The notes under the pieces: model-generated
Databases searched by the model: none
The model's input: only the letters and a program-made list of their open reading frames with translations
Told to the model about the DNA's origin: nothing
DNA from: Gemmatimonadaceae bacterium
GTDB taxonomy: Bacteria; Gemmatimonadota; Gemmatimonadetes; Gemmatimonadales; Gemmatimonadaceae
DNA: 40,663 bases
Reading direction: 5' to 3'
Assembly (NCBI GenBank): GCA_013817305.1
Contig: JACDCY010000014.1
Coordinates: forward strand, 1 to 40,663
Position numbers and translations under genes: made by a program
Shown here: positions 16,232 through 31,282 of the stretch, piece after piece
How positions within the stretch are numbered: the first letter of the stretch is position 1
How the letters are laid out: each line of letters begins with the position of its first letter

Positions 16232-18169
16232 ATGGCAGACAAAGTAATCGGAATCGACCTCGGCACGACCAACTCGGTCGTTGCGGTCATGGAAGGCGGA
16301 GACCCCGTCGTGATCCCGAACGCAGAGGGCGGCAGGACCACCCCCTCGGTCGTTGGGTTCACCAAGGATGGCGAGCGCCTCGTCGGCCAGATAGCCAAGC
16401 GCCAGGCAGTGACCAACCCCACCAACACCGTCTTCTCCATCAAGCGGTTCATGGGGCGCAAGACGAGCGAGGTCTCCGAGGAGAAGCAGCGCGTCCCCTA
16501 TAAGGTGACGAGCGGCGCCAACGACGTCGCCACGGTCGAGGTGCAGGGCAAGAACTTCACGCCCCCCGAAATCTCCGCGATGATCCTGCAGAAGATGAAG
16601 CAGACCGCGGAAGACTACCTCGGCCAGAAGGTCGTGAAGGCTGTCGTGACCGTCCCCGCGTACTTCAACGACTCGCAGCGGCAGGCCACCAAGGACGCCG
16701 GCAAGATCGCCGGCCTCGACGTGCTCCGCATCATCAACGAGCCGACAGCAGCTGCGCTCGCTTACGGGCTCGACAAGAAGAAGGACGAGAAGGTCGCCGT
16801 GTTCGATCTCGGCGGCGGCACGTACGACATCTCCGTGCTCGAGCTGTACGACGTGGAAGGCTCGCGGCAGTTCGAGGTGAAATCCACGAACGGCGACACC
16901 CACCTCGGCGGCGACGACTTCGATCAGCGTGTGATCGACTGGCTCGTGGCCGAGTTCAAGCGCGACCAGGCGATCGACCTCTCCAAGGATCCGATGGCGC
17001 TGCAGCGGCTCAAGGAAGCGGGCGAGAAGGCGAAGATGGAGCTGTCGACGACGCAGTCGACGGACATCAATCTTCCGTTCATCACCGCCGACCAGAGCGG
17101 CCCGAAGCACCTGAACTACACGCTCACACGCGCGAAATTCGAGCAGCTCGTGGACGACCTCATCAAGCGGGTGATCCCGCCGATGGAGCAGGCGCTCAAG
17201 GACGCGAACCTCAAGCCGGAGGAGATCGACGAGATCCTCCTCGTCGGCGGCTCGACGCGCATCCCGCGGATCCAGGAAGAGGTCAAGAAGTTCTTCGGCA
17301 AGGAGCCCAACAAGGGGGTGAACCCGGACGAAGTAGTCGCGATCGGCGCGGCAGTCCAGGGCGCGGTCCTCACGGGCGAGCAGAAGGACGTTCTACTGCT
17401 GGACGTGACGCCGCTCTCGCTCGGAATCGAAACGCTCGGCGGCGTGACCACGGTGCTCATCCCGCGGAACACGACGATCCCGACCAAGAAGACCGAGACC
17501 TTCTCGACCGCAGACGACAACCAGACCACGGTAGAGATCCACGTTCTGCAGGGCGAGCGCGAGCTGGCCCAGTACAACAAGACCATCGGAAAATTCCAGC
17601 TCACCGGGATTCCGCCGGCACCGCGCGGAATGCCCCAGGTCGAGGTCACCTTCGACATCGATGCCAACGGCATCCTGCACGTGACCGCGAAGGACAAGGC
17701 CACCGGCAAAGAGCAGAAGATCAAGATCGAGGCTTCGAGCGGCCTGTCCGACGGCGAGATCGACCGCATGGTCAAGGACGCGGAGAAGAACTCGGCGGAA
17801 GACAAGAAGCGCCGCGAGGAGATCGACGCGCGCAACCGGCTCGACAGCATGACGTACGAAGTCGAGAAGAACGTGAAGGAGTGGGGCGACAAGGTCGCGC
17901 CGGAAGTGAAGACCCGCGTGGACGAAGCCGTTGAGCGCGCGCGCAAGGCGCTCAAGGGCGACGACGTCGGCGAGATCAAGGCGGCGCAGGAAGAACTCAC
18001 TAAGGTCTTCAGTGAGGCCGGCCAGGCGTTCTACCAGCAGCAGTCACAGCATGCGGGCCCGACCGGCGACGCGGCGACCGGGGAGCCGGGCGCAGCTTCC
18101 GAAGGTGCTGCTCCCGCCGACGACGTGGCGGAGGCGGATTACGAGATCGTGGACGAAGACAAGAAGTAG
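16232..18169 (+). CDS. dnaK: Chaperone protein DnaK (Hsp70)
   Basis: ATP-driven chaperone that binds exposed hydrophobic stretches of unfolded proteins. 645 residues. The ATPase domain has [12 protein letters not shown] (7-18), [43 protein letters not shown] and [11 protein letters not shown]. The interdomain linker is [19 protein letters not shown], after which come the substrate-binding beta domain ([21 protein letters not shown]) and the helical lid. The C-terminus is acidic, [11 protein letters not shown], close to the usual DnaK end. There is no obvious ribosome binding site before the ATG. grpE and dnaJ are not adjacent: a structured repeat and then htrA follow. Confidence 0.98.
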
Positions 18170-18176
18170 GTCCGCC

Positions 18177-18272
18177 GGCCGGGCGGAGCCCGGGGATGGT
18201 CTTCGACCGCTACGCGCGCAAACTACGCGCGCTAAGACGCGGCCTGCGACCACCCCCGGGCTCCGCCCGGCC
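18177..18272. repeat. Structured intergenic repeat, copy 1
   Basis: Outer arms 18177-18201 and 18248-18272 are inverted repeats of 25 bases with one mismatch. They enclose a 46-base core (18202-18247) that folds into two further stems: core positions 4-9 with 38-43 and 13-18 with 26-31, separated by TAC and TAAGAC, with an AAAC-containing loop. The core matches copy 2 (29059-29104) at 36 of 46 positions. At all four variable stem pairs, copy 2 is fully paired; three pairs are exchanged for another Watson-Crick pair and one A-C mismatch here becomes G-C there. It starts eight bases after the dnaK stop codon. No poly-T follows, so it is not an ordinary terminator. Confidence 0.8.
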
Positions 18273-18359: not shown

Positions 18360-19934
18360 ATGGTCCCCTCGTTCTCTCGTGCCCGCTGGACCCTAGCGGT
18401 AGTGATCGCGTTCCTCGGCGGGTTGATGATCGCCTCCGGCATGAACTGGACGCGCCCTACGTTCGCGCAGGGCCGCCCCTCCGCGATGGACGTTCAAACG
18501 GTAGCTGAGGCGAGCAACGCGTTCGTCTCGATCTCCGAGAGCGTTACGCCTGCCGTCGTATCGATCACGGTGAACATTCGGCCGGACACGACGCGCCCGC
18601 GCGGACGCACGCAGATGCAGATCCCGCCGGGCATGGTTCCCGAAGGAATGGAAGAGCTGTTCGAGCAGCTGCAGCAGGGGCAGCAGGCCCCGAGAGTGCA
18701 GACGGGAATGGGTTCGGGCGTGATCGTCTCGAAGGACGGCTACATCCTCACCAACAATCACGTCGTCACCCGCAGCGACATGCGGACGGTGGCCGACAGG
18801 GTGACGGTGCGCCTCCTCAACGGGCGGCAGTACACTGCAAGAGTAGTCGGCACGGATCCGACGACCGACGTCGCCGTGCTCAAGATCGAGGGCGACGATT
18901 TTCAGTTCGCCGTGCTGGGCGATGACACGCGCTCGCGCGTCGGTGAATGGGTCCTGGCCATCGGCAATCCGCTCGGCTTCGACCATACGGTTACCGCGGG
19001 AATCATCAGCGCGAAGGGCCGAGGTGGCCAGGTGCTGCAGAACCTCGCGGCGAACAACCAGTACGGGATCTTCGACTTCATTCAGACCGACGCCGCGATC
19101 AATCGCGGCAACTCGGGCGGCCCGCTGATCAACAGCCGCGGCGAGGTGATCGGCATCAACACCGCGATCGCCAGCCCGAACGGGTTCAACGCCGGCTACG
19201 GCTTCGCGATTCCGATCACGCTCGCGCGCAAAGTCATGACGGACATCATCGAGCACGGCCGAGTTCGCATCGCGGTGCTCGGCATCCAGATCGACGAAGT
19301 CGATGCGCAGGACGCGGCAGCAGCCAGGCTCGCGGATGTGCGCGGCGTGATCGTCGGCGGGTTCAGCGGCGAGAACACGCCGGCGAGGCAGGCGGGCGTG
19401 CGCGAGGGCGACGTCATTGTCGCCGCCGACGGCCAGCAGGTGGACCGGGTAGCCGGGCTGCAGCGAATTGTTCGCAGCCACACACCAGGCGAAACTGTCG
19501 AGTTGCAGGTGGTTCGGTTCGGCACCCGCCATACTTTCCGCGTTCGCCTCACGGAAGCGCCGTCACAGCAGGCGGCGGCGACACCGGCGCGAGGACCAGC
19601 GCGGATCGCCCCCGGCGTGGTAACGAACAGCAATCGCCTCGGGGTTTCGGTAACGGACGTCACGCCGGAAGTAGCGCAGGGCCTCCGCATTGGGAATCAG
19701 CGAGGCGTGATTGTGACTGATGTCGTGGGTCTCGGGCCGGCCTACGAGCGCCTCTACGCCCAGGAGATCATCGTGGCCGTCCTGTCACCCGTTGACCGGG
19801 AGATTCGTGCTGCAACGGAACTGCAGCAGGTGTTGTCGGGGATGAAGGCGGGCGACTACATCTCACTCCGCGTGCTGCGACCGCAACCAAATGGCACCCC
19901 GCAATCACGGGTAGTGAATATCAGAGTGGACTAA
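18360..19934 (+). CDS. Periplasmic serine protease of the HtrA/DegP family
   Basis: Envelope quality-control protease, exported or tethered by an N-terminal hydrophobic segment (about residues 10-28). 524 residues. The trypsin-like domain has the full triad: His134 in TNNHVV, Asp170 in TTDVAVLK and Ser252 in GNSGGPL. Two PDZ domains follow, the first around 300-390 (VRGVIVGGFSGENTPARQAGVREGDVIVAADG, with the usual hydrophobic core) and the second around 425-520 (LGVSVTDVTPEVAQGL). A Gln-rich segment (QLQQGQQ) sits in the LA-loop region. A strong terminator follows its stop codon. The family is certain; which paralogue (DegP, DegQ, DegS type) cannot be told, so no gene symbol is given. Confidence 0.95.
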   Translation: MVPSFSRARWTLAVVIAFLGGLMIASGMNWTRPTFAQGRPSAMDVQTVAEASNAFVSISESVTPAVVSITVNIRPDTTRPRGRTQMQIPPGMVPEGMEELFEQLQQGQQAPRVQTGMGSGVIVSKDGYILTNNHVVTRSDMRTVADRVTVRLLNGRQYTARVVGTDPTTDVAVLKIEGDDFQFAVLGDDTRSRVGEWVLAIGNPLGFDHTVTAGIISAKGRGGQVLQNLAANNQYGIFDFIQTDAAINRGNSGGPLINSRGEVIGINTAIASPNGFNAGYGFAIPITLARKVMTDIIEHGRVRIAVLGIQIDEVDAQDAAAARLADVRGVIVGGFSGENTPARQAGVREGDVIVAADGQQVDRVAGLQRIVRSHTPGETVELQVVRFGTRHTFRVRLTEAPSQQAAATPARGPARIAPGVVTNSNRLGVSVTDVTPEVAQGLRIGNQRGVIVTDVVGLGPAYERLYAQEIIVAVLSPVDREIRAATELQQVLSGMKAGDYISLRVLRPQPNGTPQSRVVNIRVD

Positions 19935-20015: not shown

Positions 20016-20097
20016 GCGGAAGTGGCGGAATTGGTAGACGCGCTGGACTTAGGATCCAGTGGAGCAATCCGTGGGGGTTCGAGTCCCCCCTTTCGCA
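20016..20097 (+). tRNA. tRNA-Leu (anticodon UAG)
   Basis: Acceptor stem GCGGAAG (20016-20022) pairs with CTTTCGC (20090-20096), followed by discriminator A. The anticodon stem CTGGA/TCCAG encloses loop CTTAGGA, giving anticodon TAG. The T arm has GGTTCGAGTCC, and the D arm contains TTGGTAGACG. An extra-long variable arm between 20061 and 20072 marks a type II tRNA, as expected for leucine. The 3' CCA is not encoded and must be added after transcription. Confidence 0.97.
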
Positions 20098-28148: not shown

Positions 28149-28194
28149 CCAGTTGTCTGGCAGGACCTTCGGGCCACATCAACCGGTTCCCCCC

Positions 28195-29025
28195 ATGGCG
28201 CTGCTGCCCTTAAGAAAAATTGCGGACCGCCCCAATTCCTCTCTTGCCACGGCGTGGCTGGGCCAGATCGCAGCTGCCCTGGCGGACGATGCCACCGACC
28301 GTGCGATTCTGTGCCGCGAAACGCTTTGCGAGATCACGTATCCGGAGTACGCGACCGATTGGGAGAGCGCCGTCGAGGACCGAGGCCTGCCGCTGGCAAC
28401 GAGGCTCGCGCTGTCCGCGCTCGACCCGCGCAACGTCACGCTGGAGCCCGAGTATTACGCGGAGTGCGACGACACGCGCTTTCAGAAGGTGAAGCCGCTG
28501 CTCTGGCTCTGGTACTCGTTCGACCGCACGGCGCTGGGCGGGCAGAACGTGGAGCTGGGCGTGCAGCTTCGCCGGCTCCTCGCGCCGCACATCTTCAAGC
28601 GGTGCGGAGAAAACTTCAAGGCATTTCACCACGTCGAGTTTTCCTTCGGCTACAACTTGGACGTCGGGGATAACGTAGTGGTCCACCGTCACGTGCTGCT
28701 CGACGACCGTGGCGGAATCGTGATCGGCGACGGCGCTTCCATCGCCGACTACGCCAACATCTACAGCCATACGCACAGCATCGTGGATCAAAAGGACGTC
28801 ACCAACGCGGTGACCACGCTGAGCGACGGGACGCGCATCACTTATCACGCGACGGTGCTCGCAGGAGTTCATGTGGGCGAGAACGCGATGGTGGGAGCCG
28901 TGGCGGTGGCGACCAAGGACGTGCGGCCGTATCACGTGAACGTCGGGATTCCGGCCAAGAGCGTGCGCGTAAAGCCGAACGCGCCGCAGGACGCGCTGCA
29001 TGTCACCACAGTCAAGCCGCGATAG
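28195..29025 (+). CDS. Hexapeptide-repeat (left-handed beta-helix) acyltransferase
   Basis: A protein of 276 residues from ATG 28195; a TTG at 28153 is in frame, but the region before 28195 lies beside the inverted repeat and is not protein-like. The first 120 residues are helical (ALADDATDRAILCRETL and ERTY-like segments). From about 140 on come hexapeptide turns: NLDVGDNVVVHRHVLLDDRGGIVIGDGASIADYANIYSHTH, then HATVLAGVHVGENAMVGAVAVATKDV and the typical closing NVGIPAKSVRVKP. The His in SHTHS and the family structure fit an O-acetyltransferase (maltose/galactoside or sugar acetyltransferase type). The substrate is unknown. A structured repeat follows 14 bases downstream. Confidence 0.8.
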   Translation: MALLPLRKIADRPNSSLATAWLGQIAAALADDATDRAILCRETLCEITYPEYATDWESAVEDRGLPLATRLALSALDPRNVTLEPEYYAECDDTRFQKVKPLLWLWYSFDRTALGGQNVELGVQLRRLLAPHIFKRCGENFKAFHHVEFSFGYNLDVGDNVVVHRHVLLDDRGGIVIGDGASIADYANIYSHTHSIVDQKDVTNAVTTLSDGTRITYHATVLAGVHVGENAMVGAVAVATKDVRPYHVNVGIPAKSVRVKPNAPQDALHVTTVKPR

Positions 29026-29038
29026 CATCGGCGCGGGA

Positions 29039-29124
29039 GCGATGGCGCCGATGTCCCCTTCGGGAGCTACGCGAGCAAACAGCGCTCGCTAAGACGCTCC
29101 CTGTGGGGACGCGGGCGCCATCGC
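29039..29124. repeat. Structured intergenic repeat, copy 2
   Basis: Outer arms 29039-29058 and 29105-29124 are complementary over 20 bases with three mismatches. The enclosed core, 29059-29104, is 46 bases, exactly as in copy 1 (18202-18247). The two cores agree at 36 positions; the differences fall in the stems, where pairing is retained or improved, plus two loop bases and the last position. The outer arms have no similarity to those of copy 1. It lies in the 127-base gap between an acyltransferase gene and the convergent gspE-nudix gene. Confidence 0.8.
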
Positions 29125-29152
29125 CCTCTCCACATTCGGAGCGCGGCTCAGT

Positions 29153-31282
29153 TCAGATGATCCGCAGCACGTCTTCGAGCGGTCCGGCGTTGCCATCGGG
29201 CAAGAGGATAGCGATGTGAGCGAGGGCCTCGCGCTCGCGGGGCCATGCGAAGCGACGGGCCGCGTCCGCGAGCGAGAGCCACTCTGACTGCACGTGCTCG
29301 GGGCCGAGCGATGGCTCGATGGCATCTGATACGACTGCGGCGAAGGCGATCGAGAGGTGGACGGTTTCCTCCCGGTGCAGATAAAAGGCGTTTACCGTGA
29401 CGTTGTAGAGGCGCTCCGCATCCAGACCGGTCTCTTCCTTGAGCTCGCGGATGGCGGCGTCTTCCGGCTTCTCGCCCCCGGCGATATGGCCATGCACTGA
29501 TTCCCACGAGCCCGGGCACCTCGTGTCATCGGCCCGTTGCAGCGTCAGCACGCGCCACCCGGCGCCGTCCCGGGAGATCGCGTATACATCCACTACGCCG
29601 GCTTTGATCTGCGTCATTTCCCTCTTGGGCTTTCCGCTGCCGGAATGATATCGCGCGGCTGGAGCCGCGCTGGGAGTGGCGTCCTGTGGACGCTCAGCGA
29701 CACGAAGGAGCTCCTCGAGCGTCGTTTCCCCGTTGACCACGTGAGCCATCCCTGACTCCCAGATGGATGCGGCGCCGTCGGCGCGGGCGGCTTCTGCCAG
29801 GGAGGCCGCCCCGTGCCCTTCCGCTATGCGCCGATCCAGCTCGGAAGTTGAGATCACTATCTCAGCGACGGCGATCCGGCCGTGGTAGCCGGTAGCGCCG
29901 CACCGGGCGCAGCCCTCCCGCGAGCCACAGGTGCAGACGCGTCGCACGAGTCGCTGCGCAATCACCCCTTTGAGCGAAGCAGCCATCTTTTGCGGCTCGA
30001 TGCCAAGGTCCGTCATGCGGGCAATCGAGCTGCACGCATCGATTGTATGGAGCGTCGCGAGCACGAGATGGCCGGTGAGCGAGGCCTGGATGGCGATCGC
30101 GGCGGTCTCGCGGTCACGAATCTCACCGATGAGCACGATGTCCGGATCCTGGCGGAGTATGGATCGCAGCGCGGCGGCGAAGGTGAGTCCCGCCTTTTCG
30201 TTGACCTGAACCTGTACGATCCCCGGCGTGCGGTACTCGACCGGATCCTCCACTGTTATGATATTCACGCCCCGCGACTGCAGGTGCCGCAGCATCGCGT
30301 ACAGGGTCGTGGTCTTGCCGGAGCCCGTCGGTCCCGTGACAAGAACCAGCCCCTCGCGCGCGTCGAGCAATCGGTGAATTCGCGCCGACTCGTCCCGGGC
30401 GAAGCCCAGCGAGTCGAGCGTTCGCGCAGTCGTGCGCGCGTCGAGAATGCGTATCACTACCTTCTCGCCGTGGGCTGAGGGGAGCGTCGAAACGCGCAGA
30501 TCGATCCCGACCCCATTCGCTCCGACCCGCGCGCGGCCGCCTTGCGGTCGAAGCCGATCGGCGATGTCCATGTTCGCCATGATCTTGATGCGCGAGACCA
30601 ACGGAACCCCGATCATGCGAGGAAGCGTCATCGCGTGACGCAGCACTCCGTCCACGCGATACCTCACGGCAACGCCCTGCTCTTCCGCTTCGAGATGTAT
30701 GTCGCTTGCGCGCGACGCAATTCCCTCGGCGACTATGTGATCGACGAGCTTGACCACGGGGCGCTCGATCGCGGACTCGTCGAGATACGTGTACGAGTCC
30801 TCGGCGGGTTCAGGAATGTCGTCGAGCTCGCGTCGCTCGGCGACACCTTCGAGGATCTTCGCGACGGCGTCCTCCGGGCGATATACCTCATCTATCCGCT
30901 TATTGATCTGGGACGGAGGCGCAAGCAGCATCCGTACGCGGCGACCGGACGAAAACGCGAGCATTTTCTCGCAGTCCATGTCAAATGGATTGGCCGTGGC
31001 TATCTCCAACACAGCGTGGGTCACGGATAGCGGGAGAATTCGATATCGCCGCGCTAGGTCCTCCGGTACGCGTTCGCGCGCCTGGGAGGTTACGAGAAGG
31101 CGGCTCGCCGTCGGGACACGCAGTCTCTCGGCGATTGCCGAGAGAATCTCATCGTCCTTGAGTGGCGAGACGCTCGCGGCTGCCTCCCAGTAGCTATCCG
31201 TTACCGCTGCGTCGACCGCGGCCAGATCGGTGAAGTCGAGCAGGTCCGCGAGAATCGGACGGAGCCACGTGTCGGTCGGCAC
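29153..31282 (-). CDS. GspE/PilB-type secretion ATPase fused to a Nudix hydrolase domain
   Basis: A protein of 709 residues. Residues 1-545 are a type II secretion/type IV pilus assembly ATPase: an N-terminal MshEN-like region, ASDIHLEAEEQGVAVRYRVDG, Walker A GPTGSGKTT (317-325), Asp box ITVEDPVEY, Walker B-like DIVLIGEIRD, His box GHLVLATLHT and a four-Cys zinc site (VCTCG...CARCG) followed by GYHGR. Residues about 546-555 are a Ser/Gly/Lys linker. Residues 556-709 are a full Nudix domain with a perfect box, G598 to L620 (GX5EX7REUXEEXGU). The Nudix part starts with its own Met at 556 and has AGAGGGA-like purines just before it, so it may also be made alone. The fusion is unusual. The ATPase would drive pilus assembly or secretion; the Nudix role is unknown. 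Confidence 0.9.
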   Translation of the reverse strand: MPTDTWLRPILADLLDFTDLAAVDAAVTDSYWEAAASVSPLKDDEILSAIAERLRVPTASRLLVTSQARERVPEDLARRYRILPLSVTHAVLEIATANPFDMDCEKMLAFSSGRRVRMLLAPPSQINKRIDEVYRPEDAVAKILEGVAERRELDDIPEPAEDSYTYLDESAIERPVVKLVDHIVAEGIASRASDIHLEAEEQGVAVRYRVDGVLRHAMTLPRMIGVPLVSRIKIMANMDIADRLRPQGGRARVGANGVGIDLRVSTLPSAHGEKVVIRILDARTTARTLDSLGFARDESARIHRLLDAREGLVLVTGPTGSGKTTTLYAMLRHLQSRGVNIITVEDPVEYRTPGIVQVQVNEKAGLTFAAALRSILRQDPDIVLIGEIRDRETAAIAIQASLTGHLVLATLHTIDACSSIARMTDLGIEPQKMAASLKGVIAQRLVRRVCTCGSREGCARCGATGYHGRIAVAEIVISTSELDRRIAEGHGAASLAEAARADGAASIWESGMAHVVNGETTLEELLRVAERPQDATPSAAPAARYHSGSGKPKREMTQIKAGVVDVYAISRDGAGWRVLTLQRADDTRCPGSWESVHGHIAGGEKPEDAAIRELKEETGLDAERLYNVTVNAFYLHREETVHLSIAFAAVVSDAIEPSLGPEHVQSEWLSLADAARRFAWPREREALAHIAILLPDGNAGPLEDVLRII

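Follow-up and report, generated by a model that had tools for sequence, protein, structure and literature searches.

A genus-restricted family of extragenic hairpins with a conserved internal loop and freely varying stems in Gemmatimonadaceae

Introduction

Two stretches of one chromosome that fold alike while sharing little of their stem sequence raise the question of what is being retained at such loci, and whether the structure is one of RNA or of DNA. The window analysed here, a stretch of 40,663 nucleotides, belongs to one (G000) of four Gemmatimonadaceae metagenome-assembled genomes (MAGs) of a single genus (G000 to G003; completeness 89-99%). A first-pass annotation had singled out a 46-base core at 18202-18247 that recurs at 29059-29104, proposing a selected structure, either an RNA or a cruciform. 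The two cores are indeed identical at 36 of 46 positions, the differences falling at positions 5, 6, 7, 16, 23, 24, 28, 40, 41 and 46, and the pair changes are those it had listed (6/41 C-G to G-C, 7/40 C-G to A-T, 16/28 C-G to A-T, and 5/42 A.C to G-C). The TAC, TAAGAC and AAAC loops carry the same letters in both copies, and the outer arms, without any sequence in common between the copies, pair within each. The features of the two hairpins and their neighbours are as follows.

18177..18272, structural signature on the minus strand: copy 1, whole hairpin, immediately past the dnaK stop codon and ahead of a degP/htrA-like gene
18177..18201, no strand: copy 1, variable left outer arm, pairing with 18248-18272
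18248..18272, no strand: copy 1, variable right outer arm
18205..18210, no strand: copy 1, 5' side of stem 1, covarying, partner 18239-18244
18239..18244, no strand: copy 1, 3' side of stem 1
18211..18213, no strand: copy 1, asymmetric internal loop, TAC side, invariant (n = 173 copies)
18214..18232, no strand: copy 1, stem 2 with 7-nt terminal loop, a replaceable tip (GCnnGC-AAACTnC-GCnnGC in copy 1)
18233..18238, no strand: copy 1, internal loop, TAAGAC side (read as TANCAC throughout G002 and in many copies of G003)
29036..29127, structural signature on the minus strand: copy 2, whole hairpin, 10 nt past the stop of a dapD-like gene, with a convergent pilB/gspE-like gene opposite
29059..29104, no strand: copy 2, conserved tip, 46 nt
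16232..18169, plus strand: dnaK, neighbour of copy 1 (Pfam HSP70, 2e-268)
18360..19934, plus strand: trypsin-like/PDZ protease, DegP/HtrA-like, neighbour of copy 1
28153-29025: dapD-like gene, neighbour of copy 2 (weak hexapeptide match)
20016-20097, plus strand: tRNA gene, the sole Rfam match in the window at gathering score

The gene opposite copy 2 (29153-31282, minus strand) is a single 709-aa frame that joins MshEN and T2SSE (PilB/GspE) domains to a C-terminal NUDIX domain, and is either an unusual fusion or two genes joined by the assembly.

Results

A multicopy hairpin family confined to one genus

Folded as RNA, copies 1 and 2 are more stable than their shuffles (z = -9.2 and -6.6); both also fold as DNA on either strand, copy 1 being somewhat more stable as the minus strand (-53.4 kcal/mol) than as the plus (-48.7 kcal/mol). 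A first search with copy 1 alone returned 42 matches in the window's genome. A covariance model of 44 copies, in which copy 1 was included and copy 2 left out, scored the window copies at 77.5 and 74.6 bits (E about 1e-15), the third-best match in the window being at chance level (13.8 bits). With up to 150 candidates scored per genome, this model identified at least 80 copies in the window's genome and at least 74, 60 and 69 in the three genus-mates, the last figure being that of G003. Many copies of the same fold with compensatory changes had been named as the observation that would support a selected structure, and the covariance-model search of the host genome and its relatives provided it, with at least 60-80 copies per genome in four genomes, covariation far above that of shuffled alignments and 443 double Watson-Crick swaps.

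The family is confined to one Gemmatimonadaceae genus. Among 295 genomes of the class scanned with the covariance model, the four of the genus included, no credible copy was present in the other 291, where three weak matches reached at most 31.5 bits, near chance level. When 84,980 species representatives were scanned for the exact pattern, matches came only from two Gemmatimonadaceae MAGs, CALMKE (taken as G003) and JANLGX (G002), and zero exact-pattern matches among 2.9 million viral contigs led us to discard a phage origin. Literature searches retrieved no described family that combines a fixed loop with a free stem.

Anatomy and covariation of the hairpin

On the plus strand the hairpin consists of a variable outer stem, a 3x3 loop, the six-pair stem 1, the TAC/TAAGAC internal loop, stem 2 (GCnnGC/GCnnGC) and the terminal loop AAACTnC. 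The stem measures 30-45 bp and differs in sequence at every site, the arms being about 30-45 nt long (median 36 on each side, with 30 Watson-Crick pairs), and stem 1 may be of any sequence across copies. Only two features are kept, namely the pairing of the stem and the asymmetric internal loop, C-TAC-G opposite C-TA(AG or NC)AC-G. Between CTACG and CTA(AG/NC)ACG, flanked by long pairing arms, the tip ranges from 5 to 53 nt, and as stem 2 and its loop are thus wholly replaceable across copies, the invariant element is the internal loop with its closing pairs. When tips of ten bases, bounded by CTACG and CTANNACG, were sought by pattern, all matches resembled coding sequence.

In a gap-free alignment of 44 distinct cores, standard pairs occupied 88.2% of the pair cells as compared to 74.4% in shuffles, and the covariation score was 0.341 against 0.113 +/- 0.013 for shuffles, none of 500 reaching the observed value; the best slid version of the alignment scored 0.113. 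Changes on both sides were found at 12 of 17 pairs, and stem 1 (helix 2 of the alignment) was 98.5% paired with five of its six pairs altered on both sides. The retention of a loop motif and of pairing, with stem letters left free, points to a factor that reads the shape of DNA (or RNA) over its sequence.

Location relative to genes

The copies are extragenic and usually lie directly past a stop codon, the distance from stop to core being most often 40-55 nt, so that the stem begins immediately past the stop. Classification yielded 41 converging doublets and 96 singles, a doublet being present at about 30% of sites with a core-to-core spacing of 76-266 nt. Gene context was studied on stretches fetched because they contain copies, and the proportions of gaps of at least 60 nt that hold a copy (tandem 74/184, convergent 35/51, divergent 7/48) are accordingly to be compared only between gap types; divergent gaps are avoided (7/48 vs 109/235, p = 4e-5). 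Orientation relative to transcription showed no preference in tandem gaps (28 vs 23, p = 0.58). Of 138 copies, about one in four has CATC or GCAT within 14 nt past its right arm, perhaps as the outer boundary of the element. At L030:9344-9618 and its orthologs, the spacer of a doublet is of equal length in the four species and includes a conserved block, GTTCGCGCGAGACNCACAAACGGCGGCCCGACGC, which is perhaps a regulatory site for the adjoining pyrimidine-related genes.

The position past stop codons, the enrichment in convergent gaps and the depletion in divergent ones would suit terminators of transcription, or insulators, operating at gene ends without a U-tract. We regard this as improbable, since among single copies in tandem gaps roughly every second one has the polar cap the other way round, and since an ordinary U-tract terminator (GGGGCGTCCAGAAATTGGGCGCCCCGTTTTTTTT) is present near one hairpin copy (L178 near 2283). 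Neither arm is flanked by a T-run or U-tract, which rules out an intrinsic terminator.

Strand polarity and apex loops

The structural signature was found to reside on one strand, designated F, which is the complement of the plus strand that the first-pass annotation had read; its structure was upheld, its strand corrected. The central dinucleotides of stem 2 on the plus strand were GA/TC in 59 copies, TC/TC in 52, GC/GC in 45, TC/GA in 14 and GA/GA in none. TC/TC, which gives two adjacent pyrimidine mismatches on the plus strand and a tandem G.A on F, was encountered 52 times while its mirror was never seen. Likewise, a conserved A.C mismatch on the plus strand, 14-17 pairs outward of the core, reads as G.T on F, with A.C alone accounting for 60 copies as compared to 5 for G.T, 5 for T.G and 2 for C.A. 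F is assigned as the structure-bearing strand because it tolerates tandem G.A but never the mirror, and because A.C on the plus strand corresponds to its G.T. Over pairs 18-30 each of the four genomes had more A.C plus C.A than G.T plus T.G mismatches (20:13, 17:6, 12:5 and 25:11), a tendency that is weak in each genome by itself. RNA, too, accommodates tandem G.A and G.U.

With the loop bases left free, the pattern CTACGC-NNN-GCTANNACG gave 26 matches in the four genomes, with the F-strand loop being GAA in 20, GTA in 4, GCA in 1 and AAA in 1. These short-tip copies, at sites partly shared by descent, carry GC(GNA)GC on F in 25 of 26 instances and on the plus strand in none, and on that one strand two or more G-C pairs close the GNA loop. 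In all 20 triloop matches examined the pairing arms scored 22-31, as against 1-3 for the chance matches examined in other genera. G-N-A is likewise the F-strand reading of the canonical loop, in which all 173 copies have the first G and 153 of them the A. GC(GNA)GC is a class of extraordinarily stable DNA mini-hairpins, GCGAAGC having a Tm of 78 C (PMC4686876). The short-tip copies, with GCGAAGC, GCGTAGC or GCGCAGC on F, resemble the d(GCGNAGC) mini-hairpins, although the latter are in vitro structures while the sequences described here cap a natural repeated element (PMC4686876).

The original alternative of RNA or cruciform can thereby be narrowed, as the GNA loops on F, the strand polarity and the lack of preference for the direction of transcription favour a DNA hairpin. 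The opposing view is that of a structured RNA of untranslated regions (a 3' stability hairpin, a leader or an independent small RNA), with a protein bound to its cap and a stem left free since pairing suffices. The very strong covariation and the tight placement, with the core mostly 40-55 nt past the stop codon, speak for it, as does the view that REPs elsewhere act partly as RNA (PMC3733652). However, a polar structure occurs equally commonly in both directions relative to transcription, and the short loops conform to the DNA GNA family and to no RNA tetraloop family. At gathering score the hairpin matches no Rfam family, for which reason a known RNA family was ruled out; below threshold it matches only microRNA-precursor models, which describe a generic long hairpin. 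We therefore consider RNA unlikely, though a serious contender.

Evolution at shared sites

Homologous flanks on both sides identified 127 pairs of copies at shared sites. Their 2184 comparable stem cells comprised 1430 unchanged, 246 changed on one side and 508 changed on both, and 443 of the 508 two-sided changes led from one Watson-Crick pair to another. The extent of stem change was not correlated with flank identity (rho 0.10, p = 0.33), certain stems being kept and others being fully replaced despite flanks that are 88-93% identical (e.g. G001 L148:3540 vs G002 L090:1452). Copy 1 and its G001 ortholog (L164:2672) have related stems, the two differing by a 3-bp insertion that is matched between the arms.

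The internal-loop letters shift genome-wide, TAAGAC being found in 48 of 49 cases in G000 and TANCAC in 30 of 30 in G002, with G003 mixed. Such a shift at shared sites would be expected if one reader protein drifts, and together with the free stems it suggests a trans-acting reader of the cap.

Could the hairpins instead be a functionless mutational by-product, the arms being matched by template switching within hairpins (quasipalindrome correction)? The excess of double over single changes (508 vs 246) and the indel matched in both arms of copy 1 and its ortholog agree with this, and template switching could nevertheless drive stem turnover. As a complete account we find it highly improbable, given that the cap is polar and is the best-conserved intergenic sequence at the one fully aligned site, and that its orientation is kept though template switching inverts spacers too. 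Tip orientation was the same in 126 pairs at shared sites, and all apparent flips concerned doublet partners, thereby ruling out arm inversion by template switching.

Hairpins are gained and lost among members of the genus. Copy 2 is missing at the dapD gene end in all three relatives, and at L037:1750 G001 has no copy and G002 a short-tipped one. At L040:1564 (L195, L207, L213) the hairpin of the window's genome stands on a GTGACTAG/CTAGTCAC base at the exact position where G001 and G002 have tandem copies of a palindrome, GTGACTAGTCAC, and G003 has a diverged full element. The palindrome is possibly the scar of hairpin loss; insertion into pre-existing palindromes was not adopted, loss with a scar being equally likely as G003 has the full element. 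Near-identical copies at new sites, which would directly demonstrate recent mobility, were not seen, stems differing everywhere.

Discussion

We propose, at a probability of about one half, that these hairpins constitute a REP-like extragenic DNA family, adopting a single-stranded or cruciform state and read by a putative trans-acting protein. The F strand would be single on the lagging strand, or as a cruciform arm in negatively supercoiled DNA, and would then form a stem of 30-45 bp, with the 5'-CGTCTTAG...CGTAG-3' internal loop and an apex of the very stable GNA type as its cap. The long stem may serve only to extrude and hold up this cap, which would explain why its letters are free while its pairing is kept. 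A putative trans-acting protein would read the cap by shape and a few loop bases, would have spread the copies in the past and would now maintain them at gene ends; searches of the four genomes for Y1_Tnp, reverse transcriptase and integron integrase yielded no candidate for it. A stricter formulation, which we advance tentatively and hold to be rather doubtful, is that of a near-purely structural chromosomal element, a GNA-capped DNA hairpin with a fixed asymmetric loop and an arbitrary self-complementary stem, read on one strand by a non-HUH factor, and with the stem kept and re-made by arm-to-arm copying.

About 280 natural copies in four species present a hairpin in which selection acts on pairing and on a few loop bases and leaves stem sequence free. 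The set allows recognition of DNA structure to be separated from recognition of sequence and the rate of arm co-evolution to be measured, and it is a lead to a new protein that reads structure and is distinct from the RAYT, IS200 and integrase families.

Similarities to REP, BIME and REPIN sequences include high copy number, extragenic location in tandem and convergent gaps downstream of coding sequences with depletion in divergent gaps, close inverted pairs (here the converging doublets) and one polar strand, and some REPs sit within longer palindromes (PMC3733652). A classic REP/REPIN family whose RAYT transposase has since been lost or was missed would account for copy number, extragenic place, converging pairs and a polarity of the single-stranded DNA type, and the F-strand tip starts with CGTC and finishes with GTAG, which are two known REP tags (PMC3733652). 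However, GTAG, expected 5' of the hairpin, is located 3' of it, and CGTC is lost to CGTG in the TANCAC variant. REP stems of 6-13 bp, within a conserved palindrome of 20-40 bp, are conserved in sequence, whereas the stems described here are long and free, the conserved part being the internal loop at the tip. The host range also differs, being one genus of Gemmatimonadota. The RAYT/IS200 domain Y1_Tnp (PF01797) was absent from six genomes, including the four of the genus, in a search in which controls were detected, and RAYT/IS200 was accordingly rejected as partner. As the stem is long and free, GTAG lies on the 3' side and Y1_Tnp is lacking, we place the hairpins outside the REP/RAYT family as defined, and view a lost or missed transposase as quite unlikely at the completeness of the four genomes.

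The REP-like reading of a DNA hairpin recognised in trans has further parallels. The location, the doublets and the one-strand polarity are akin to those known for proteins that read folded single strands (PMC8266576). A retron, DGR or group II intron origin was dismissed, as only one of the four genomes encodes a reverse transcriptase. The promoters of the N4 virion RNA polymerase are small DNA hairpins that are extruded and read as structure, as is proposed for the present family. Integron attC sites are folded single strands of variable sequence that are recognised by structure in a strand-specific manner, and in this they resemble the hairpins; in attC, however, the boxes at the base are kept and the tip varies, which is the reverse of the arrangement found here. 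Integron attC was rejected, as a full-length integrase is present in G002 only, among the four genomes. Integrase matches above cut-off occur only in G001 (fragments) and G002, with none in G000 and G003 despite their at least 80 and at least 69 copies. The genes concerned are one full-length integrase of 423 bits on C446 of G002 and four partial ones on C5, C8, C14 and C20 of G001.
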